Notes: generated by a model from the sequence alone, not told the origin. A stretch of 35,617 nucleotides of DNA from Chloroflexota bacterium (GCA_005883575.1 VBFH01000014.1:1-35617), one strand, 5' to 3'; shown: positions 13,377 through 35,617, numbered from the stretch's first letter. A program made the numbers and translations.

Positions 13377-13529
13377 CAACACCTAGCATGCCACGCCACG
13401 ATTGGCTCCCGCCCTGCCAGCACTTTGAGATCCGTCATAAACGGAGAAGCAATCGCGGCGCGCATGGGCCTAGCGTGAGCGGCATAAACGCGACGCAGCC
13501 AACGCCGCGAATATGACAGGAGGAATCGA

Positions 13530-14019: not shown

Positions 14020-14478
14020 ATGAAGGAGAAGCAGAAGTCCGCCAAGAGCCCCGCCGCCACAAGAAAGAGGTACGAGGGATTCACGGACGAGGAACGAGAC
14101 GCGATGAAGGCCCGCGTCCAAGAGCAGAAGGTGGCCGCGGCCAAGGCGGACGGGGAAAGCGCCCTGCTCGCGAAGATCGCCGAGATGCGGGAACCGGATC
14201 GCGCCATGGGCAAGCGGCTCCATGCCATCATCAAAGCGAGCGCCCCCTCCCTCTCGCCGACAACCTGGTACGGGATGCCCGCGTATGCCAAGGACGGCAA
14301 GGTCGTCTGCCACTTCCAAAGCGCGCAGAAGTTCAAGACGAGGTACGCGACGTTCGGGTTCAGCGACGCGGCGAACCTCGACGAAGGCGCCCTGTGGCCA
14401 GTCGCCTTCGCGCTGAAGGGGTTAAGTGCCGCCGAGGAGGCAAGGATCAGCGCGCTCGTGAAGAAAGCGGTGAGCTGA
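14020..14478 (+). CDS. DUF1801 (YdhG/CyaY-like fold) protein
   Basis: This 152-residue protein has a Lys-rich helical N terminus ([20 protein letters not shown]) followed by a DUF1801 domain: [58 protein letters not shown] and a closing [21 protein letters not shown] precedes the ATG by about 9 nt. Members are small proteins of unclear role, some proposed to handle iron. It follows the VOC gene by 76 bp and could be co-transcribed. Confidence 0.85.
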
Positions 14479-14637
14479 GGACTGAGCTCAAGCCGCCCTT
14501 CCATGGCCTTTACCTCCGGCTGCGCTTGGCAGGACGGCGCGCAAGCGCGATCGTCGCCGTGGGACGCGAATGAAGGCGTCCAAATACGTCGTCTTTGGGT
14601 GGTTTCAGCTCGAAACCTTCGTGTCTTGATCGGCTGG

Positions 14638-14687
14638 CGTCCAGACCTGAGGCGATTTTCCAACGGATTACTACATGAACTACTACA
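14638..14687. repeat. Integration-locus-like repeat, copy near 14.67 kb
   Basis: CGTCCAGA, then at an offset of 27 bp GGATTACTACATGAACTACT followed by ACA. The same block with the same 27-bp offset and 22 of 23 identical bases in the second part lies at 28330-28379. It contains a tandem heptamer TACTACA-TGAAC-TACTACA with 12-bp period. No tRNA fragment is seen beside this copy. Confidence 0.6.
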
Positions 14688-14721
14688 GAGCTGAGGTGCC
14701 ATCCAGGGGCTTACGTCTGTC

Positions 14722-23890: not shown

Positions 23891-23909
23891 TGCTACACGG
23901 ATTGCTACA
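23891..23909. repeat. Tandem heptamer motif (arm-site-like)
   Basis: TGCTACA-CGGAT-TGCTACA: two identical heptamers with 12-bp period, the same geometry as the motifs at 14669-14687 and 28361-28379. It is 160 bp from the tRNA-Pro 3' half at 24070, on its other side from the motif at 24222. Confidence 0.5.
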
Positions 23910-24069: not shown

Positions 24070-24114
24070 TGGTCGGGGGCCCGGGATTTGAACCCGGGGC
24101 GTCACGTTCCCGAA
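24070..24114 (-). other. 3' half of tRNA-Pro(CGG): attachment-site remnant
   Basis: On the minus strand the DNA reads, in order, anticodon loop TTCGGGA (anticodon CGG), ACGTG (3' anticodon stem), a short variable region, T arm CCGGG-TTCAAAT-CCCGG, acceptor GCCCCCG, A, CCA. This is the 3' half of tRNA-Pro. No matching 5' half is present upstream (no CGGGGGC acceptor or D arm). A cut in the anticodon loop is typical of tyrosine-integrase attachment sites. Confidence 0.75.
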
Positions 24115-24221
24115 ATTTAGGCGGTTTCGTCCATCAAGGCCGTTTTCGAGGGTCTTGCGTCAATTTCGAGCCCTCCCCGCAGTGATTTTGAGCCCCATCC
24201 TGGGTCACTCACTCCCTGCGT

Positions 24222-24240
24222 CATGACATGAATGACTACA
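24222..24240. repeat. Degenerate tandem heptamer motif
   Basis: CATGACA-TGAAT-GACTACA matches TACTACA-TGAAC-TACTACA in 14 of 19 positions and keeps the 12-bp period. It starts 108 bp beyond the tRNA-Pro half, nearly the same distance as in the 28-kb copy (106 bp). Confidence 0.4.
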
Positions 24241-24460
24241 TGAAACTGCGGCTCGAGGCCAGGTGAGCGAGGACCCTGGTCAGTTTATCAATCGCTGCAT
24301 TCGATCAACTCGCCAAACAACACTGCGAACTGCACCGGGCAGATTTCCTATTGCCATTCGCCGCTGAGAGGCGCACGTTTTAAGTTGTGGCCTGGGGGAG
24401 GCTGAGACTTCTCGGCCCAATGCTTTGCATCTCAGCTGTCCGGCGCTGGAGGGCTTGCCT

Positions 24461-24970
24461 ATGCGAAGGCTCTTGCTGATCGCGACCACGTCGTTCGCGG
24501 CCATTTTGATGATGGCCGCTGCAGCGACACCCGCTGCGGCCTATGGAAACCCACCAGGCGGTCCTAAGCAGACTTACCAGCTCATGTTCTCGTTCAACTG
24601 CAACAATCCCGCCGCATGCGCCAGCATGGGCGGAACTGGCGGATTTTGGGGGTGGGCGGTCCTGTACTCGGATGGGACTGGCGACGCGGAACTGACCGGC
24701 TGCCAGCACCTGGTGGGAGGGGGCGGTCCCGGCACGGCAGGCGCGATCCACTTCCACGATGATTTCACCTTCGACCTCAGCAACACCACGGAACTAGTAA
24801 CCATCAGCGAGACTCAAACTTACGTTGGCCGCTTTCGAACGACCATGACAGTGCCCGGATCGGACTCGGGCATCCCGCTGACACCCGGTCACTACACCGC
24901 CTCCGATTTGTTCGGCTTCACGCCACCGCCAGGCGTGGCGATCCAGATCCAAGTCGTCAAGCTGCACTAG
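24461..24970 (+). CDS. Secreted protein of unknown function
   Basis: The 169-residue product starts MRRLLLIATTSFAAILMMAA with a signal peptide ending AAATPAAAYG. The mature part has two possible disulfide Cys in FNCNNPAACASMGG and one in GDAELTGCQHLVGGGG, followed by an HFHDD segment and a beta-rich end (TMTVPGSDSGIPLTPGHYTA). GGAGG precedes ATG 24461 by 8 nt. No family is recognised. It stands alone and is closed by a strong hairpin; it lies within the segment bracketed by tRNA-Pro halves, so it may be cargo. Confidence 0.75.
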   Translation: MRRLLLIATTSFAAILMMAAAATPAAAYGNPPGGPKQTYQLMFSFNCNNPAACASMGGTGGFWGWAVLYSDGTGDAELTGCQHLVGGGGPGTAGAIHFHDDFTFDLSNTTELVTISETQTYVGRFRTTMTVPGSDSGIPLTPGHYTASDLFGFTPPPGVAIQIQVVKLH

Positions 24971-24978
24971 ATCAATCG

Positions 24979-25011
24979 AGAGGGGCGGCTCGCGCCTAAA
25001 GCCGCCCCTCT
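24979..25011 (+). terminator. Strong hairpin after the secreted-protein gene
   Basis: A perfect 12-bp stem (AGAGGGGCGGCT at 24979-24990 and AGCCGCCCCTCT at 25000-25011) with a 9-nt loop begins 9 bp after the stop. There is no T tract, so it may stop transcription with help or protect the 3' end. Confidence 0.65.
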
Positions 25012-25029
25012 ATGGGGCCCGTCCCGTGT

Positions 25030-25503
25030 CCGGCCACGGACAGGGCGACGAACACCCCACGAATGCTTGGACCCAAGCGGATCCACCGCCTCGTGCTCGA
25101 ACTGCCACGCGACCACAGAGTCTCGACCTCGATGACGATGTGGATATGAAGCTCTTGGCCGCAGACAGAAGGCTCGCCTGAACCTCAGGCTCAACAAGGC
25201 GCCCTCTCGCAGCGGACGATCGAGCTGATGTTTTGGGACGTAGAACTCCGGATAGCCGAAATTCTTGACCGGGCCAACTGAGAGGATCACCATCTTTCCG
25301 GCTCGTTCAGCGGCCGCGAGCTGCCAATCGAGCTGCTGGGTGTCGAATTCACGGCCGCTGGTTTCGATGCGATCCCAATAGGCCCCAAGGCGCAGCAACT
25401 CGAAGGGATATTCGAGCAACGCATCAAGCGTGGTCTGGCCTCCCAGGCCGAAGGCTTCAACCTGGCGCGGGCCGAAAGCTGATTCCGAGCAGCGCCCATT
25501 CAC
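25030..25503 (-). pseudogene. Decayed glycosidase-like gene (TIM-barrel N-terminal part)
   Basis: The first ~100 codons read TTLDALLEYPFELLRLGAYW, DRIE, QLDWQLAAAERAGKMVILSV and PVKNFGYPEFYVPKHQLDRP, the early strands of a TIM-barrel glycoside-hydrolase-like protein. Then the frame breaks: LLSAAKSFI appears in another frame, and VVAWQFEHEAVDPLGSKHSW returns in the first. The N-terminal start and the C-terminal catalytic half are missing. Homologues would be about 300 residues or longer. It is a pseudogene with two or more frameshifts. Confidence 0.5.
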
Positions 25504-25705
25504 GCGGCCTTACCGCAACCGGCCGCCAGTCGTCGCGCATCGGGGGTTTGCGCTTGGCGAGCCTTACGCCCAGCAATGGCTCAGGCCACCTCGGCGAAAT
25601 ATTCGAACTGCGTCATGCTCACGGCAAGCCAGATGTTCCGTTGCTGACCTGGACACTGGTCACTGGGTCTCCTTGCTCCGCGCCCGCGTCTGGGCTTCCC
25701 TGAAC

Positions 25706-27094
25706 TCAGACCAGGTCGCCAAAGAATCCGTTGAGAAAGCGACCTTGAGGATCCTCACGCTTGCGAATCTCCAAGAAACGAAGCCACTCCGGGCCCAGCG
25801 TTCGCTGGACCAGGCTTCGGTTTGGGTGCTTGGTCTGGTTGAGTAGTGGCCGGCCCACGAAGTCGGCAGCGACCTCGTTGAACTGCTTGTTGAACTCGGC
25901 CCACAGGGGATCGTTGGTTCGAGTGTCGACGACATCCATTGTGAGCATGTCCTCGTTGGGCGACGGTGAGAGCAGAGAGTGTTGATCCCGAGCCAGGGCA
26001 TAAACCTCGGCCATGATCGACATGCGAAAACCGGTCTGCTCACGAAAGCGTTCGCAGAACTCCCGGACAGCGGGCGTGAATTCCGCCCAGCGGCTGACGG
26101 GAATGGCCCAGAACGTGAAGTCCACCCAATCGGAGCGGTTCGGCTTGAAGTCGACAGTGGAATCCCAGCGGTGCGCAGTGAATCCCCCGATCGCGGTCAG
26201 GATTCGCAGCTGCGTCTGGAGAAGGCGATCCTGGGTGTCGAACCACCAATTGTGAGGCAGGCGGGCGGGAAAGAAGCTGGCACCGCTCTCCCAGAGGATG
26301 TCTCGGAAGCGCCGCTTGGCGCGAGAGAAACGGGTCGGGCCACCCGCACCGTCGGGTAAGCGGAAGCGGCGCTCGACGATGATCCGGTTCGCGTAAGGCT
26401 GCGCGAAGCCGAGCATCGCATCGGCGCCCGCACGCATCTGCTCGATGGTTGGCGCAGGGACGAGGGGCAGTACCGCGTACTCGTACCTCAGCAGGACTGC
26501 CGGCTGGATTCGGAATGTGACCTCGTACACGATGCCAAGCAGTCCGTAGCTCGAACGCAGGACTCGCATGCGCTCCGGATCGGATTTCTCTGAGACGTCC
26601 TCGACTTCGCCTCGGGCGTTGACCAGCTTCATGGCGCAGACCGCCGAGCTGACCTGGCCCAGGCCTGTCCTGCCCAGCGACGAGTCCTTGGTCCCACAGC
26701 AGCACACCGATCCGGCGGTTGCGTTGCCGATCTCCGGTGTCACCTCCAGCTGGACGCCCATGGGTCGCAGCGTGTTTCGAATCTGCAGAAGCGTTACCCC
26801 GGCACCGACGGTCACCGTTTGCTCCGCCAAGTCGACCTTTATCTCGTTGAGCGCCCTGGTCATGACCTGCGTGCCAGTGGTTTCGAAGCATGCGTTCATC
26901 GAATGAAGGCTGCCCGCCGCACGCAGCGGCGACTGGTAGGTGTCTCGGTCTTTGACCACCTCGGCAAGCTCTGACGAATCGCTGGGAACCGCTATGACCC
27001 GAGGATGGCTCACGTCCGAACCGTTCCAGTTGCGCAGCGTCCGGCCGGGCTCCGAAGCGACCGTAGGCCGGTGGCTCACCAAGCTGTTGTCCAT
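25706..27094 (-). CDS. FAD-linked oxidase (gulono/arabinono-lactone oxidase-like)
   Basis: The 462-residue protein has a PCMH-type FAD domain (about 25-210): RNWNGSDVSHPRVIAVPSDS, AAGSLHSMNACF, VTVGAGVTLLQIRNTLRPMG, GNATAGSVCCCGTKDSSLGR and MKLVNARGEVEDVS. A C-terminal domain like that of D-arabinono-1,4-lactone oxidases follows, with WVDFTFWAIPVSRW and the ending DPQGRFLNGFF. The His of LHSMN aligns with the position that holds FAD covalently in related oxidases; whether it does so here is uncertain. It would oxidise a sugar lactone or alcohol with O2 or another acceptor. It stands alone between the glycosidase remnant and the transposase remnant. Confidence 0.88.
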   Translation of the reverse strand: MDNSLVSHRPTVASEPGRTLRNWNGSDVSHPRVIAVPSDSSELAEVVKDRDTYQSPLRAAGSLHSMNACFETTGTQVMTRALNEIKVDLAEQTVTVGAGVTLLQIRNTLRPMGVQLEVTPEIGNATAGSVCCCGTKDSSLGRTGLGQVSSAVCAMKLVNARGEVEDVSEKSDPERMRVLRSSYGLLGIVYEVTFRIQPAVLLRYEYAVLPLVPAPTIEQMRAGADAMLGFAQPYANRIIVERRFRLPDGAGGPTRFSRAKRRFRDILWESGASFFPARLPHNWWFDTQDRLLQTQLRILTAIGGFTAHRWDSTVDFKPNRSDWVDFTFWAIPVSRWAEFTPAVREFCERFREQTGFRMSIMAEVYALARDQHSLLSPSPNEDMLTMDVVDTRTNDPLWAEFNKQFNEVAADFVGRPLLNQTKHPNRSLVQRTLGPEWLRFLEIRKREDPQGRFLNGFFGDLV

Positions 27095-27240
27095 CGCCCC
27101 ATCCCCTCCTGATCAGCGCAAGAAGTCGTTTTGGCCGAGCACATGGTAGACCCGCACAGCCGGGATGCAGCCAGTCGTGACATGGGGACTTTATCCGGAC
27201 GATGGTCGTGGGCCCGGTATCTCAGTCAGGGGGGTTCCAA

Positions 27241-27390
27241 GTGAGCGAACGGGATCTTGCAAAGCGAGCAGCGAAACGCCTAGCCATCCTCAGACATGCC
27301 GAGGAGGTGTCGGGGGAGTGTTGCCAAGACGTGTCGGTACTACGGCGTCAGCCGCAGCCATTCAGTTTGTGATTGGCGGCAGCTTATGCA
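27241..27390 (+). mobile_element. Transposase/integrase-core gene N-terminal remnant
   Basis: GTG 27241 starts MSERDLAKRAAKRLAILRHA, EEVSG; then one frame over SVAKTCRYYGVSR. Joined across the G5 run at 27312-27316 these form the N-terminal helix-turn-helix of IS481/IS3-like transposases (RLAIL.H..EV.G.VA.TCRYYGISR). The sequence then decays, and no integrase core (DDE) follows, so the element is dead. The rest of this ~500-bp gap (27095-27600) holds nothing else recognisable; short frames near 27480-27580 are not convincing genes. Confidence 0.5.
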
Positions 27391-27600
27391 GCGATTAGTG
27401 GGGAGGTGCGGGACAGGCGGGAGGAGGTCAAATTGGTGGAAGAATTTGCTTCGCAAAGATGAAATGTTCCAAATGGCTACAACAGGAGCAATAATGCCGA
27501 ACCCCACAGAACTTATCGATGAGCTAATCGTCGAAGGCCGGAATCACCCTCGTCTCGGGAATCCCAGGTGGCGCATCTGAGACCAAGAACAGGAGATGAG

Positions 27601-28182
27601 ATGGGAAAGGTAATTGTGATGAACTGGGTGACGCTTGACGGCGTGATGCAGGGACCGGGTCGCGCGGATGAGGACATGCGGGATGGGTTTGAGCGCGGCG
27701 GCTGGGGGATCCCGTACGGCGACGAGGCGAGCGTCGCCAAGATGGGCGAGCGGATGGGCGGGGATCGCGCGTGGCTGTTCGGGCGGCGCACCTACGAGCA
27801 GCTCCTGGCCTCCTGGAACGCCCGGGGCGGCCCGTTCAAGGACGCGCTCAACAACGCACGCAAGTACGTGGTCTCGAGCAACCCGGCGACGAGGCTCGAC
27901 TGGCCGAACTCGACTCTGCTGCACGGCGACATTCCGGCCGCCGTGGCGGACCTCAAGCAGAGCTCGAGCGCGAATCTCGTGATCATGGGTAGCGGCGTAC
28001 TGATCGGCTCGCTCATGGCCGCCGATTTGATCGACGAGTACCTGCTGATGATTGCTCCTCTGGTGCTGGGCACCGGACGGCGGCTGTTTGCCGGCGGCAC
28101 GCAAGCATCGCTGCGGCTGGTCGACAGCATCACCACGAGCACAGGCGTGTTGATCGCCACGTACGAGGCTGCTCGGGGATAG
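27601..28182 (+). CDS. Dihydrofolate-reductase-like (RibD C-terminal domain) protein
   Basis: The 193-residue protein has MGKVIVMNWVTLDGVMQGPG, then AWLFGRRTYEQLLASWNARG, ARKYVVSSNPATRLDWPNST and ANLVIMGSGVLIGSLMAADL, followed by IDEYLLMIAPLVLGTGRRLF. It closes LRLVDSITTSTGVLIATYE. This is the RibD C-terminal/YyaP type of the DHFR fold, which binds NADPH. AGGAG is 6 nt before the ATG. The physiological reaction of these stand-alone proteins is mostly unknown; a role in folate metabolism is not implied. It ends 29 bp before the second tRNA-Pro half. Confidence 0.88.
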   Translation: MGKVIVMNWVTLDGVMQGPGRADEDMRDGFERGGWGIPYGDEASVAKMGERMGGDRAWLFGRRTYEQLLASWNARGGPFKDALNNARKYVVSSNPATRLDWPNSTLLHGDIPAAVADLKQSSSANLVIMGSGVLIGSLMAADLIDEYLLMIAPLVLGTGRRLFAGGTQASLRLVDSITTSTGVLIATYEAARG

Positions 28183-28211
28183 GTGAGTCGCGAAATCGCC
28201 CGATTTTGAGT

Positions 28212-28255
28212 TGGTCGGGGGCCGGGATTTGAACCCGGGGCCTCACGGTCCCGAA
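28212..28255 (-). other. Second 3' half of tRNA-Pro(CGG): attachment-site remnant
   Basis: Same orientation and content as the copy at 24070-24114: loop TTCGGGA, T arm CCGGG-TTCAAAT-CCCGG, then acceptor CCCCCG (one base shorter), A, CCA. The 3' anticodon stem reads CCGTG instead of ACGTG. No 5' half is present. The two copies are direct repeats 4.1 kb apart. Confidence 0.7.
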
Positions 28256-28329
28256 TTCTTGGCGGTTCGGTCCAGAGTGAGTGTTTTCGGGGCGATTTGA
28301 CTTCAAACACGGTCCAGTCGGAAGAGTCT

Positions 28330-28379
28330 CGTCCAGATTTGACGTGATCATCCGCGGGATTACTACATGAACTGCTACA
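28330..28379. repeat. Integration-locus-like repeat, copy near 28.36 kb
   Basis: CGTCCAGA and, 27 bp later, GGATTACTACATGAACTGCT followed by ACA repeat the block at 14638-14687. The tandem heptamer TACTACA-TGAAC-TGCTACA starts 106 bp past the tRNA-Pro half. The SDR stop codon (28375-28377) lies inside it, so the gene's end may have been set by the integration event. Confidence 0.6.
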
Positions 28380-29265
28380 TGGAAGCAATGGCGCCGGAGC
28401 CGAGGGTTGTCATGCCGACCAGGTCGGCGCTGATCTGCCAGAGCCTGGCTGCCAGATCGGTGTCGTAGGCGACCTTGTTCGCGGCCCTTGGCTTGCGGTC
28501 CGCGAAGAACTGCCCGGTGACGCCGGCCACGTCGGGTGAAGACGCCAGATAGATCGATGTCTGGGCGCCTTGCGCCGGGGTCCTCAAAAAGGGGCGAACG
28601 ATGCGGCTGATAACTGTGAAGAACCAGGCCTGATCTTCAGCGCCGAAGTCGGTGCGAACGAAGCCCGGGTGCAGGGACGTGGCCGTGACGCGCGTGCCTT
28701 CGAGGCGACGGGCCAGCTCGTTGGTGAACATGACGTTGGCGAGCTTCGATTGGCTGTAGGCCGACTGCCCGGAGTAGTTGCGAGAGCCCTGCAGGTCGTC
28801 GAACGCGATATGGCCCTCCGCCTGTACGTGGGAGGAGACGGTTACCACCCTTGCGGGTGCGCAGGCCTTGAGCCGATCGAGAAGGAGGTTGGTGAGCAAG
28901 AAGGAGGCGAGGTGGTTGAGAGCAAATGTGTGCTCTAGACCATCGGCGGTTGGGTGTCGGTGTGCCCAGAACCCGCCCACGTTGTTGACCAGCACATGAA
29001 GCTTCGGATACGTATCGAGGACAGAGGCTGCGAGCCGGCGTACCTCGACCTGGGAGCTCATGTCGCCGGCGAACGCGTCGACCGCAGAGTTTCGCGAAGC
29101 CGTACGGACGTCGGCCGCGGACTCTGCGGTGCTCGCGAGGTCGCGACCTGTGATGCCGACCCGGGCGCCGAGGGTGGCAAGGCCGATCGCGGTGGCCTTG
29201 CCGATTCCCCCGGTGCCGCCGGTGATAAGGACGACCTTGCCGGCCATGGGAAGTGCCTCAGGCAT
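28375..29265 (-). CDS. Short-chain dehydrogenase/reductase
   Basis: The 296-residue protein has the NAD(P) motif GGTGGIGK near residue 16, NNVGG, a catalytic Ser in VVTVSSHVQAEGH, and YSQSK with the catalytic Tyr and Lys. The layout is that of the WW-oxidoreductase/retinol-dehydrogenase-like SDRs; the substrate is unknown. ATG 29265 is chosen because it overlaps the upstream gene's stop by 8 bp (ATGCCTGA), while the longer frame to 29328 lies inside that gene. It is the last gene of the three-gene operon. Its stop lies within the repeat at 28.36 kb. Confidence 0.9.
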   Translation of the reverse strand: MPEALPMAGKVVLITGGTGGIGKATAIGLATLGARVGITGRDLASTAESAADVRTASRNSAVDAFAGDMSSQVEVRRLAASVLDTYPKLHVLVNNVGGFWAHRHPTADGLEHTFALNHLASFLLTNLLLDRLKACAPARVVTVSSHVQAEGHIAFDDLQGSRNYSGQSAYSQSKLANVMFTNELARRLEGTRVTATSLHPGFVRTDFGAEDQAWFFTVISRIVRPFLRTPAQGAQTSIYLASSPDVAGVTGQFFADRKPRAANKVAYDTDLAARLWQISADLVGMTTLGSGAIASM

Positions 29266-31242: not shown

Positions 31243-31500
31243 GTGAATTACTACATGGCCGAAGTGAGGCTTCGAGTCGAAGCGGGGACGGACCTCTCAT
31301 GGATCCGCCAGAGCCTCGAGGCAGCGTGCCGGCGCGTCGATGGCACCAGCCCTGGCCTGAATATCTTGAGCGCGCTCCACATACCGGGCGATGGCCGGCT
31401 CTCCTTCATCGTCACGGCGCGGGGCCGCAATGACGTCCAGCATCTGTTCGAGATCGCGCTGCTGCCTTCAGCGCGGGTCCTGGAAGTGGTGGAGGTCTAG
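31243..31500 (+). CDS. Small conserved protein of unknown function
   Basis: The 85-residue product starts at GTG 31243 ([20 protein letters not shown]) or ATG 31255. It contains [40 protein letters not shown] and [19 protein letters not shown] beta-alpha-beta ferredoxin-like fold similar to DUF4242-type proteins seems likely from the V.V.AGTD / [13 protein letters not shown] pattern. No good ribosome site precedes either start. It converges on the LuxR regulator and shares its stop as CTAG. Confidence 0.65.
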
Positions 31501-33797
31501 TTCGGCGTCAGTTCGCGTGCCACCCAGCTGGAGATCTCAACTCGGGAATTGACTCCGAGCTTGTCAAGGATGTTGGACACGTGCGTCTCGACAGTGCGCT
31601 CGGACAGGAAGACGCGGGAGGCGATCTCCTTGTTGCTGAGGCCCTCCGAGACGAGTTCGGCGATCTCGAGCTCCCGCTTGCTCAACGTCGACTTCCCGGT
31701 CTTCACCAAAACGCCTGTTGGCCGGGTAGGCTTCTTCTCCTCCAGTGCGTATGTGATCGTCTCATCCCTTCCCATCCGCCTACCTGCTTGCGTCTCGGAC
31801 TCCAGATTCGCAGCTCCTAACGAGGCGGAAATGGTTTCTCGCGCCTGTATCAACAGCGGTTCCATATGCCGCATCAGACGAACACCGGTCTGGGCCTGCA
31901 GGTTCTCCGCGGCGCCCAACAGCCGTGCGGCGCGCTGGGGCCGGCCGACCAAGGCCGCGTGGCATGCCAGCCCGTACAGCATGTAGACGATCATGTCCCG
32001 GTTCTCCAGGCGACGCTCGATTGCCAGGGCTTCCTCGAACAGCGGCCGGGCCGTCTCTGGTTGTCCGTTTTGGAGGAGAGCGAAGCCGTACATCGAAATC
32101 AGGTAGCTGAGGGTTTGGATGTCGCCGCGGTCGCGGGCTCGGCCAGCCCATTCGGAGAACACCCGTTCCAGTGCTTGTAGGTCCGTATCGCCGAGAGCAA
32201 TAAAGGCTGCAGTCAGGGCCAGCATTGCATCGGCGGCTGCATCGTCAAGGCCGCTGGCCAAGACCTTTGCCTCACGCAGCTGGGACCGAGCACCTTCGAG
32301 GTCGCCGCTCATTACACGGACTCCCGCGCACACGGCAAGGATCCGAGCGAGCAGCGGCCCATCATGCAGCGCGCGCGCCCTCTCCTCAGACTCGACAAGC
32401 AGCGGCTGGGCAGTGGTCGCATCCCCCTGCGTCATTGCCATGAAACCTCGCGCGTAGAGCGCACGCGCGGTGGTGGAAGGGTCGCCCTCTCTGCGCTCGA
32501 GGAACAGGTCCAGCCAATAAGCGCCCTCACTTGTGGCGCGTGCGGTCCAATACCAAAGAAGCGAGCCGACGATGGACATGCCGACAGCGTGGTCAGGACC
32601 GTTGAGGCAATGCGCGAGAGCGGCGCGCACGTTGTCGACCTCGCTGTCCATTCGTTTTAGCCACTCCACGACGTTGACAGTTTGCGCGGCCTTCTCTCCC
32701 ACCTTGCACATGGCGGAGTAGAAGCGGACGAAGGCTTTCATCGTCGTGGCCTGCTCACCCGCATCGCGCAGCTTTAGCAGCGCGTACTCGCGCATCGTTT
32801 CGTGAAGCCGGAAGCGGGCGATTGCAGCGCCGGGCATCCGGGCCACAAATGATTTCTCAATCAGGTTGGACAAGAGCTCGAGCACGGACGACGGGGCGAT
32901 GGTCGTTCCGGCTGCAACCGCTTCAGCGGCATCGAGCCCAAATTCGGAGGGGAAGACCGCAAGTCGGCGCAGAACCGCCGCCTCCTCGCCGCTCAACAGG
33001 TCGTGACTCCAGTCAATAGTTTCCATCAGCGTCTGCTGCCTCGGCAGCGCAGCCCGGCTGCCGCCAGTGAGCAACGCGAAACGTTCGCTCAACCTTTCAA
33101 TCAGTTCCTCGAGTCCAATGGTCCTCAATCTGATCGCTGCTAACTCCAGCGCCAGAGGCATGCCGTCCAGCCGTCGACACAGATCGGAGACAAGCTGGCG
33201 GGTGGCATCGGTTTCCTCGAGCTGGATGCCCGCATCCGCGGATCGGGCTAGGAAGAGGGCCACAGCCTCCGACTCCGCGGAGCCGGAGCCTTCTCCCGGC
33301 AGACTCAGCGGCGGAACCTGAAGCACGCGCTCGCCTGAGATACCCAACGGCTGGCGGCTGGTAGCGAGGAGGCGAACTCCGGTGGCTTCCTTCAAGACGA
33401 CATCGACAAGGACGGCGATGGCGTCCAAAAGATGCTCGCAGTTGTCGAGGACGAGAAGCGCTTCGCGAGAGGCCAGGTGGGTGACCAGGAGCGAGGTTGG
33501 CCACTGTCCAGACTTGTCCGCCAAGCCCAGGCTGGTAATCACCGCCTTTGGAACCAGATGAGGATCTTCGAGACCCGCAAGGTCAATGAACCAGACGCCG
33601 TCGCTCACGGTCCGTCTGAGATCCGCGGCGGCGCGTAGGGCGAGCCGGGTTTTACCAACGCCACCAGGTCCGACCAGGGTGAGGAGGCGGGTATTAGCGA
33701 ATGCCGCCTTGACCTCGGCCAGCAAACGGCGCCGGCCGACGAAGCTGGTCGACTCCGCCGGAAGTTTGCCAATGCCGGATCGATTGGCGGGGGACAT
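31497..33797 (-). CDS. ATPase/TPR/LuxR-type transcriptional regulator
   Basis: This 766-residue protein has an NB-ARC/AAA-type ATPase domain with Walker A GPGGVGKT (43-50) and Walker [12 protein letters not shown] (about 113-123). These are followed by [30 protein letters not shown] and [13 protein letters not shown] region (about 380-640) and a C-terminal LuxR helix-turn-helix close it ([38 protein letters not shown]). It is the SARP/LAL-like architecture used to couple ligand or protein sensing to DNA binding. A TAAACT box 6 nt before the ATG and no ribosome site suggest a leaderless mRNA. It lies 54 bp downstream of a paralogue. Confidence 0.93.
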
Positions 33798-33803
33798 GCC
33801 GTC

Positions 33804-33809
33804 AGTTTA
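33804..33809 (-). promoter_or_regulatory. -10-like box of a leaderless promoter
   Basis: TAAACT lies 6 nt before ATG 33797 within AACCTAAACTGACGG, which is conserved upstream of the LuxR fragment at 11.09 kb. Transcription starting 6-7 nt downstream would begin at the ATG itself. Confidence 0.4.
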
Positions 33810-33851
33810 GGTTGGGTTTTGGGGGCCTCGCGACGGACCGTAATGGGACAG

Positions 33852-35617
33852 TTACTGCTTTGAGGACGCCATCCAGCTCGCGATCTGAGCGCGCGAGTTG
33901 AAGCCGAGCTTGTTCATGATGCCGCGAACGTGGGTTGCGACGGTGGCCTCTGAGATGAACAGGCGCGCTCCGATCTGCCTGTTGCTCAGACCCTCGGCGA
34001 TCAACTGCGCGACCTCCGCCTGCCGCGTCGGAAGTAACCCCGGAGCAACGGAGTCTGCGGCCCCGAGTTCGGCTTGAGTGGCTTCGCCGAGAGCGAGGCG
34101 CACCGCCGTGTCGCGGCTCATGTGTTTGCCTGCCTCGAATTCGGCCTCGAATTTCGCTGCACCAAGCGCTCCAATCGCTGACTCTTTGGCCTCGGCAAGC
34201 AATGGAACTGCTGGTCCCATCATGCCCGCGCCAGCACCCGTAGCCACAGCTTGTGCTGCTCCTAGCAGCTGGGCTGCGACTCGCACCTGCCCAGAGTTGG
34301 CCGCGTACCAGCCCAAACCGGCGAGCCTCCAATACTGGCCGAGCCGATTATCGATCTGTCGAGCGACTTGCAAGGCTTCGACGAACCGCGACTTTGCCGT
34401 CTCAAGGTCGCCGGCCAACACTCCAACCATGCCAAGGTTGCCAAGCATGGCTTCAACTTGATACAGGTCACCGGCTTCTCGGCTGAGGCGCACGCCCTCT
34501 AAAGAGACAGCTCTCGCCGTCTCCAAGTCCCCCTCGACCAAGGCGAGAACGGCTCGAGACAGCAGCAACTCGATCGTCGCCGGAAAGTCACGAAGGCCAG
34601 GGGTAATCTCTTCGGCCTGCTCGAGGTATCGTCTGGCCGCCTCGAGATCGCCGGCCACGCTCTCAACGGTCGCGGCTATTGATAGTGACTCCGACAATTT
34701 CGTCAGCTGTCGCGTCTCTCGAGCCGTCGCTACTGCTCGAGCGATCCATGCCCTGGCGGTTGAAGCGTCTGCTTGTAGCAGGCTTAACCACCCACGAAGG
34801 TAGTAAGCCCGCACCTTGGTCGCTGGGGCAGCATCTTCAGCTCCGAGCAGCTCGTCAAGCCAGCGCGTGCTCTCCGTAGTCCCGTGCGTGATCCAGTAGT
34901 AACCCATCGAAGCGGCGATATCCAGACCGCGGGCGAGGTCGCCGCGCGCCACACATTGATGGAGAACGGCTCGGATGTTGTCGATTTCCAGGTCCGCCCA
35001 CGCGAGCCAATCGACTAGCTGGTACCGAATTTGGTCCACAGATTGCAGACACGTCGCCCGGTAGTACTCGAGGCAACGCTCCTCGAGAACCCTGTCCTCA
35101 TGTGCATCTCGCAACTTGAGGGTGGCGTATTCGCGCATCGTCTCGTGCAGTCGATAGGAAGCGTGGCTCCTGACGTCTTGTTTGGTCACGAGCGATTTGT
35201 CGACCAGCGAGGTCATCGTGTCGAGCACCTCGGCTGCCGGCAGGTCGTCGGACGTGCACACCGACTCGACATCTTCGAGGGTGAACCTACCTGCGAACAC
35301 GCATAGGCGTCGAAGCAAGGCTTGTTCGCCCTCGCCCAGGAGCTCGTAACTCCAGTCGATGGTCGTTTCGAGGGTCTGATGGCGCGGCAGCGCGACGCGG
35401 CCTCCTCCTGTGAGGAGGGCGAATCGATCACTCAGTCGCTCGAGGATCTGCTCGACGGCAAGCGCCCGAGTTCTCACCGCGGCGAGCTCGATCGCCAGCG
35501 GCAGTCCGTCGAGCCGCCGACACAGACCCACAATGGCCGCTCGATTTTCAGTGGTCAACTCAAACGCACCTGACGCCGCAGCCGCGCGCTCGGTAAAGAG
35601 CATGACGGCCTCGTTTT
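33852..35617 (-). CDS. Second ATPase/TPR/LuxR-type regulator, 5' end outside the window
   Basis: The visible 587 codons run from the window edge (the frame is open through 35617, so ATG 35603 is internal) to the stop at 33852. They hold the end of the ATPase domain ([60 protein letters not shown]) and a TPR region with several AxxxYxxG-type repeats. A LuxR domain follows (TRQAEVAQLIAEGLSNRQIG, SEATVATHVRGIMNKLGF, NSRAQIASWMA). It is paralogous to the downstream regulator, with about 35-40% identity by eye. The Walker motifs lie outside. The two genes look like a tandem duplication. Confidence 0.92.
   Translation of the reverse strand, partial: NEAVMLFTERAAAASGAFELTTENRAAIVGLCRRLDGLPLAIELAAVRTRALAVEQILERLSDRFALLTGGGRVALPRHQTLETTIDWSYELLGEGEQALLRRLCVFAGRFTLEDVESVCTSDDLPAAEVLDTMTSLVDKSLVTKQDVRSHASYRLHETMREYATLKLRDAHEDRVLEERCLEYYRATCLQSVDQIRYQLVDWLAWADLEIDNIRAVLHQCVARGDLARGLDIAASMGYYWITHGTTESTRWLDELLGAEDAAPATKVRAYYLRGWLSLLQADASTARAWIARAVATARETRQLTKLSESLSIAATVESVAGDLEAARRYLEQAEEITPGLRDFPATIELLLSRAVLALVEGDLETARAVSLEGVRLSREAGDLYQVEAMLGNLGMVGVLAGDLETAKSRFVEALQVARQIDNRLGQYWRLAGLGWYAANSGQVRVAAQLLGAAQAVATGAGAGMMGPAVPLLAEAKESAIGALGAAKFEAEFEAGKHMSRDTAVRLALGEATQAELGAADSVAPGLLPTRQAEVAQLIAEGLSNRQIGARLFISEATVATHVRGIMNKLGFNSRAQIASWMASSKQ

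Follow-up and report, generated by a model that had tools for sequence, protein, structure and literature searches.

A probable tRNA-Pro-anchored tandem array of integrative elements, mostly without integrase, in a Chloroflexota metagenome assembly

In Chloroflexota, tandem islands downstream of a single RNA gene are described from Dehalococcoides, where a serine (CcrB-like) recombinase targets the tmRNA gene ssrA, over a dozen 20-bp repeats occur, about half of the islands have no integration module and the content differs by strain (PMC3146451). Additive fGIs at tRNA genes are described for Alteromonas (PMC4119200), Ca. Actinomarinales (PMC7771536) and Ca. Methylopumilus fGI-2 (PMC10872708), and the Alteromonas island is given there as somewhat over 110 kb. 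CIME accretion is cited in PMC3146451, and tycheposons are mentioned in PMC10872708 and PMC11389934.

Here we analysed a contig of 35,617 bp (the window), which is the entire contig C90 of a 3.6-Mb assembly in 127 contigs (G000). All genomes used are metagenome assemblies, as far as the records show. The original prediction had described a lone 4.1-kb island, which was ruled out by the roughly 40 copies of its boundary sequence in the genome; the island is one unit of an array of ~40 cores and ~235 kb anchored at tRNA-Pro. We consider it likely that the locus belongs to a tRNA-anchored tandem array of integrative elements which was built by tyrosine integrases, and that most of its units are integrase-free and could be moved only in trans.

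The kind of structure is already known from additive fGIs, the Dehalococcoides ssrA islands and CIME accretion, and what is new here is the scale, the integrase depletion and the presence of two arm codes. CIMEs, which have neither integrase nor transfer genes, are described as one or a few elements beside an ICE. The units described below resemble them in being bounded by att sites, in mostly lacking an integrase and putatively transfer genes as well, and in that they could be co-mobilised with a neighbour, but dozens of them lie in series here. Like tycheposons, which are tRNA-targeted tyrosine-recombinase elements with cargo that cluster in islands, the units sit at a tRNA target; unlike them, and compared by description only, they are small and mostly without recombinase. 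With additive fGIs the locus shares a conserved tRNA gene used as repeated cassette target, direct repeats of its 3' end that bound the cassettes, and variable content, whereas arm-type sites in each unit are unreported in the texts consulted on those islands and here ~235 kb are involved and the arms are kept in integrase-free units. As in the Dehalococcoides islands (PMC3146451), the host is assigned to Chloroflexota and tandem islands bounded by 3'-end repeats lie downstream of one RNA gene; unlike there, where a DsiB serine recombinase acts on ssrA, we found tyrosine recombinases of the Phage_integrase type, a tRNA-Pro target, a 45-bp core, two arm codes and ~40 copies. Literature searches on integrases at tRNAs and on genomic islands in Dormibacterota retrieved no description of this array.

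Both tRNA-Pro(CGG) 3' halves named in the original prediction were present in the window, on the plus strand at 24070-24114 and 28212-28255, each corresponding, in reverse complement, to the tRNA gene's 3' part. The first core has 2 mismatches to the genomic consensus core, and the second, of 44 nt, is one base short of the consensus and otherwise identical to it. From core to next core, one complete array unit of 4142 bp extends over 24070-28211 (+). Since tRNA gene prediction on the window returned none, no 5' half was overlooked and the claim that no intact tRNA lies in the window was confirmed; similarly, the Phage_integrase search of the genome revealed no integrase in the window, as had been stated. 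Each core is followed by a class-A right arm region (defined below), at 24115-24267 (+) and 28256-28406 (+), and the two att sites as a whole (24070-24267 and 28212-28406) scored as class A with nhmmer at E = 8e-38 and E = 3e-41, respectively. The predicted heptamer pair behind both halves held for the second one, where it is exact at 28361-28379; the region behind the first is partly degenerate and keeps a single clear heptamer, GACTACA near 24234, ~119 bp from the core, with a degenerate partner.

To the left of the first core, an exact pattern match recovered the heptamer pair TGCTACACGGATTGCTACA at 23891-23909 (+), and we read it as a left-side (P) arm; similarly placed pairs precede the tRNA-Pro core in G039:C70 and a tRNA-Asn half in G022:C7 on their left side. 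A third exact pair, absent from the original prediction, was located at 14669-14687 within a degraded class-A att site at 14577-14699 (+), which consists of an arm region without core (nhmmer E=1e-18, model positions 59-181). The pattern T(A/G)CTACA-N5-T(A/G)CTACA is exact three times in the window (at 14669, 23891 and 28361; 0 expected from window shuffles), and 14 such pairs were counted in the whole genome versus 0 for a reversed control pattern. A DUF1801-like gene (14020-14478) adjoins the outermost att site in the window, in G019 and in G026; it was rejected as marker of a clean distal array edge, since paralogues occur in several genomes and the further neighbours are not syntenic. A 'mir-14' Rfam match in the window was under its threshold and was regarded as chance.

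The cargo of the complete unit agreed with the description given before. It comprises a predicted secreted protein of 181 aa without Pfam match (24425-24970, +), a gene remnant (25192-25479, -) with ~60% identity to a gene downstream of tRNA-Pro in G020 and G032, an FAD-dependent oxidase with FAD_binding_4 and ALO domains (25706-27094, -; Pfam) and a RibD_C / DHFR-like reductase (27601-28182, +; Pfam). The next unit runs from 28256 to the contig end at 35617 (+) and carries an SDR, a zinc-type dehydrogenase, DUF4386 and two LuxR-type regulators. Large LuxR- or BTAD-type ATPase/TPR regulators recur in the cargo, both on array contigs of this genome (L021, L023, L024, L031 and L033) and in the window at 31497-35603. 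The window would contain a single complete unit and the beginning of the following one, besides older sites in decay.

When the first half was used as query against the genome, 40 matches were obtained, mostly on short contigs and spaced 1.7-7 kb apart, and their common core of 45 bp has about 40 copies; the genome-wide search for further copies of the half with its heptamer block was thus answered positively, and the number may be summed over co-existing strains because all genomes are metagenome assemblies. Using an nhmmer site profile, 54 att-like loci were found in the fetched contigs, the tRNA itself counted, of which ~13 have no core, have only part of it or start at a contig end. The degradation of several att sites marks parts of the array as fossil. 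Within each contig the att loci are co-oriented, with one partial match on C21 as sole exception. Summing the array contigs and the window from 14.5 kb onward gives ~235 kb, equal to 6.5% of the assembly, and the G+C content of the array contigs is 61-65% versus ~66-67% in three other contigs.

The search for an intact tRNA-Pro(CGG) elsewhere in the genome was successful: the gene is present on contig C106, and the reverse complement of its 3' part is the 45-bp core. Among relatives, an intact tRNA-Pro stands at the array edge in G001, G003, G018, G019, G022, G024 and others. The genes on its 5' side are conserved between C106 and G003, G004, G013, G018, G019, G022, G024 (L111) and G026, and were judged, from sequence alone, to be thioesterase-like, lipoprotein, phosphatase-like, phosphotransferase-like and acyl-CoA dehydrogenase-like. 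On the 3' side, the tRNA is followed by a cassette end in most relatives with the conserved 5' side. In G020 and G032 neither a cassette end nor a second core was seen beside tRNA-Pro; they were rejected as a proven empty site, as genes downstream of the tRNA match fragments of the window in an order that is not collinear.

Each core is accompanied on its right by arm-type repeats in one of two conserved layouts. Class A (26 loci, among them those in the window) has GTCCAG boxes and, ~105 bp on, GGATTACTACATGAACTACTACA, its signature being TACTACA-N5-TACTACA; in class B (28 loci), GTGTCC repeats occur together with GCGTGACACGGCTGTGAC (TGTGAC pairs). At their fixed distance from the core, these arm repeats are conserved mostly at 1-1.4 bits per base, versus 0.15-0.3 in the main class-A spacer and past the arms. 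On the left, a TTTGAATTCAAA-like motif stands 1-4 nt from most cores (48% of 120 distinct flanks at up to 3 mismatches, versus 0.8% in shuffles), and many units contain TGTGAC-N5-TGTGAC or a heptamer pair another ~40-80 bp to the left. Hybrid units with an A right arm and a B-like left arm exist, so left and right arms do not always match.

At at least 6 places an rve-type (IS481-like) insertion sequence ends exactly at the CCA edge of an att core, including that of the intact tRNA-Pro of G000 (G000:C106 and C111 with L042 and L040:2765-3955, G010:C83, L102, L106). Two more end types abut cores, namely CGCGTAG (four sites) and a second rve element (three sites). IS1111-attC elements are insertion sequences of integrons, and by analogy with them the ends seen here look like those of insertion sequences targeting att sites.

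In total, 54 distinct complete units with accessory genes were collected, with a median of 4 kb. Units common to genomes at 85-98% identity have mostly different neighbours where both are visible, and the cassette content is variable between related genomes; with this and with the many other copies in the genome, the refuting conditions of the original prediction did not apply. Left of a core the sequence tracks the left unit to the final base, and right of it the right unit from the first base. For instance, an end module shared by C10, C13, C45, C73, L091 and L117 precedes different right arms, and a single right arm follows different left ends in L092 and in C10. The flanks switch exactly at the core edges, which confines the exchange to the 45-bp core. 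An apparent insertion of a unit (X-Z versus X-Y-Z; C36, L089, C109) proved to involve an insertion sequence 9 bp left of the core and was discarded as evidence.

In the proposed mechanism, the tRNA-Pro(CGG) gene would serve as attB and a tyrosine integrase would recombine the core, with the crossover most likely placed in the anticodon loop, which lies at the right end of the core. The incoming circle would restore the tRNA 3' half, and the old half would become the new core on the far side. Further rounds of insertion, into the tRNA gene or any of the cores, would lead to a head-to-tail array, and excision between any two cores would remove or reshuffle units. A unit would be made of core, right arms, cargo, left arms and the TTTGAATTCAAA-like motif, and the integrase would have been lost from most of them. 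Since most units have arm and core sites without integrase, they would be mobile only when an arm-matched integrase acts in trans.

Six Phage_integrase matches were found in the G000 genome, and only the one on C100 (L029:964-2250) sits between two cores, which are of class B; the other units between cores are accordingly att-bounded without integrase of their own. Its catalytic part is complete, but over its first ~66 residues it matches a PNPOx domain and shows no homology with the intact relative on G022:C12. From this N-terminus we consider that the C100 integrase has probably lost its arm-binding end and may be inactive; the in-frame PNPOx-like fusion probably arose by deletion inside a unit. 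The search for a tyrosine recombinase beside a copy was further answered on array contigs of the relative G022. Contig C12 there stops inside a core and, besides an intact 485-aa integrase frame, encodes an HTH_17 (Xis-like) protein together with an XRE-type regulator; contig C20 starts inside a class-B core and has an intact integrase of a second clade (PF00589 on C100 and both contigs). As G022 encodes intact integrases on its array contigs, mobilisation in trans by an integrase elsewhere, as suggested by the original prediction, is the likely reading, and the system may still be active.

A chromosomal locus of the same relative, G022:C7 (L149:9395-9530), has a second-clade integrase ~2 kb from three TGCTACA heptamers, a AATTCGAA motif and a tRNA 3' half that reads as tRNA-Asn (anticodon GTT). 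An OLD-like AAA/TOPRIM gene is present at this site alongside the integrase. The layout of the window site is thus repeated at another tRNA together with an integrase, which ties the heptamers to a tyrosine integrase family and indicates that the system uses more than one tRNA. The reading of the window sites as core and arm-type sites of a tyrosine integrase was thereby strengthened, as it was by the unit swaps that resolve to the core.

The strongest alternative, which we regard as unlikely, is a fossil array: old insertions by self-encoded integrases whose genes have since been lost, reshuffled by RecA recombination between cores without site-specific movement. Such recombination between 45-bp cores could yield identical junctions, and degraded or core-less sites (in the window as well), the truncated integrase in G000 and integrase C-terminal remnants beside cores (L091, G010:C138) fit with it. 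However, 32 cores of G000 have no more than 3 mismatches and most are perfect, the arms are conserved beside unconstrained sequence in units without integrase, the integrases on array contigs of G022 are intact, and near-identical units with different neighbours imply recent exchange. These findings argue against a fossil array, though not conclusively.

At least two cores (up to 3 mismatches) were detected in 19 of the 42 genomes of the family, with 0-32 cores per genome and the highest count in G000. Among named records, the site was seen in soil MAGs of Chloroflexi/Candidatus Dormibacterota and in one contig labelled Acidobacteria; from its kinship to these MAGs, G000 would belong to the same group. 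The Acidobacteria contig (gp7, L084, QHVV01000043.1), from a related soil sample series, has a class-A core, which may reflect transfer or misbinning. A viral source was rejected, as the core with the arm start had 0 matches in IMG/VR. On G026:C14, a long contig with an integrase nearby, two cores are opposed at 13525(+) and 16903(-), unlike in the head-to-tail arrays.

An assembly or binning artefact, in which tRNA-half contigs of several strains or species were pooled in one bin, is improbable for the array, though it may have affected the exact number of copies. In another family, two genomes (G075 and G049) carry array contigs that share 99.5-99.9% identity with those of the array family, so misbinning is likely there and an array in a second family was rejected; in one case, G075:C350 and G000:C84 are near-identical (99.6-99.8%) in genomes assigned to different families. 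Against pooling as a general explanation, contigs on which unique cargo separates several cores were seen in numerous MAGs of different soil sites. Long examples are G022:C1, with sites in a single orientation from 245.9 kb to near the contig end at 290 kb, and G026:C4, with sites in a single orientation between 9 and 72 kb of its 270 kb; moreover, the tRNA and cores stand on one contig in G001, G003, G019 and G024.

A genuine integron or a CALIN, based on folded attC sites, which shares with this locus a long co-oriented tandem array of cassettes mostly without integrase gene and insertion sequences beside the att sites, is extremely improbable, as neither attC nor IntI was seen (judged from the tRNA-half boundaries and the phage-type integrase domains), the sites are double-stranded tRNA-type 3' halves with arm-type repeats that match the tRNA gene itself, the units are bigger, multi-kb and multi-gene, and the recombinases near the array are Phage_integrase proteins with SAM-like N-terminal domains of phage/ICE type.

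Beyond the tRNA-anchored array of integrative elements, we tentatively propose, at somewhat less than even confidence, an integron-like, trans-acting cassette platform on the tRNA-Pro att site. Dozens of integrase-free units would keep their arms under selection and be shuffled by a few resident or incoming integrases, and with two or more arm codes on one core, different integrases would mobilise different subsets of units.

If the array is contiguous in single cells, ~6.5% of the genome would be a superintegron-sized cassette store run by a phage/ICE-type integrase and not by an integron, and it would follow that tRNA-type att sites alone can sustain long cassette arrays. Two arm codes on one core offer a testable model for the mobility of integrase-less elements, and uncultured soil Dormibacterota would gain a defined route of gene acquisition.
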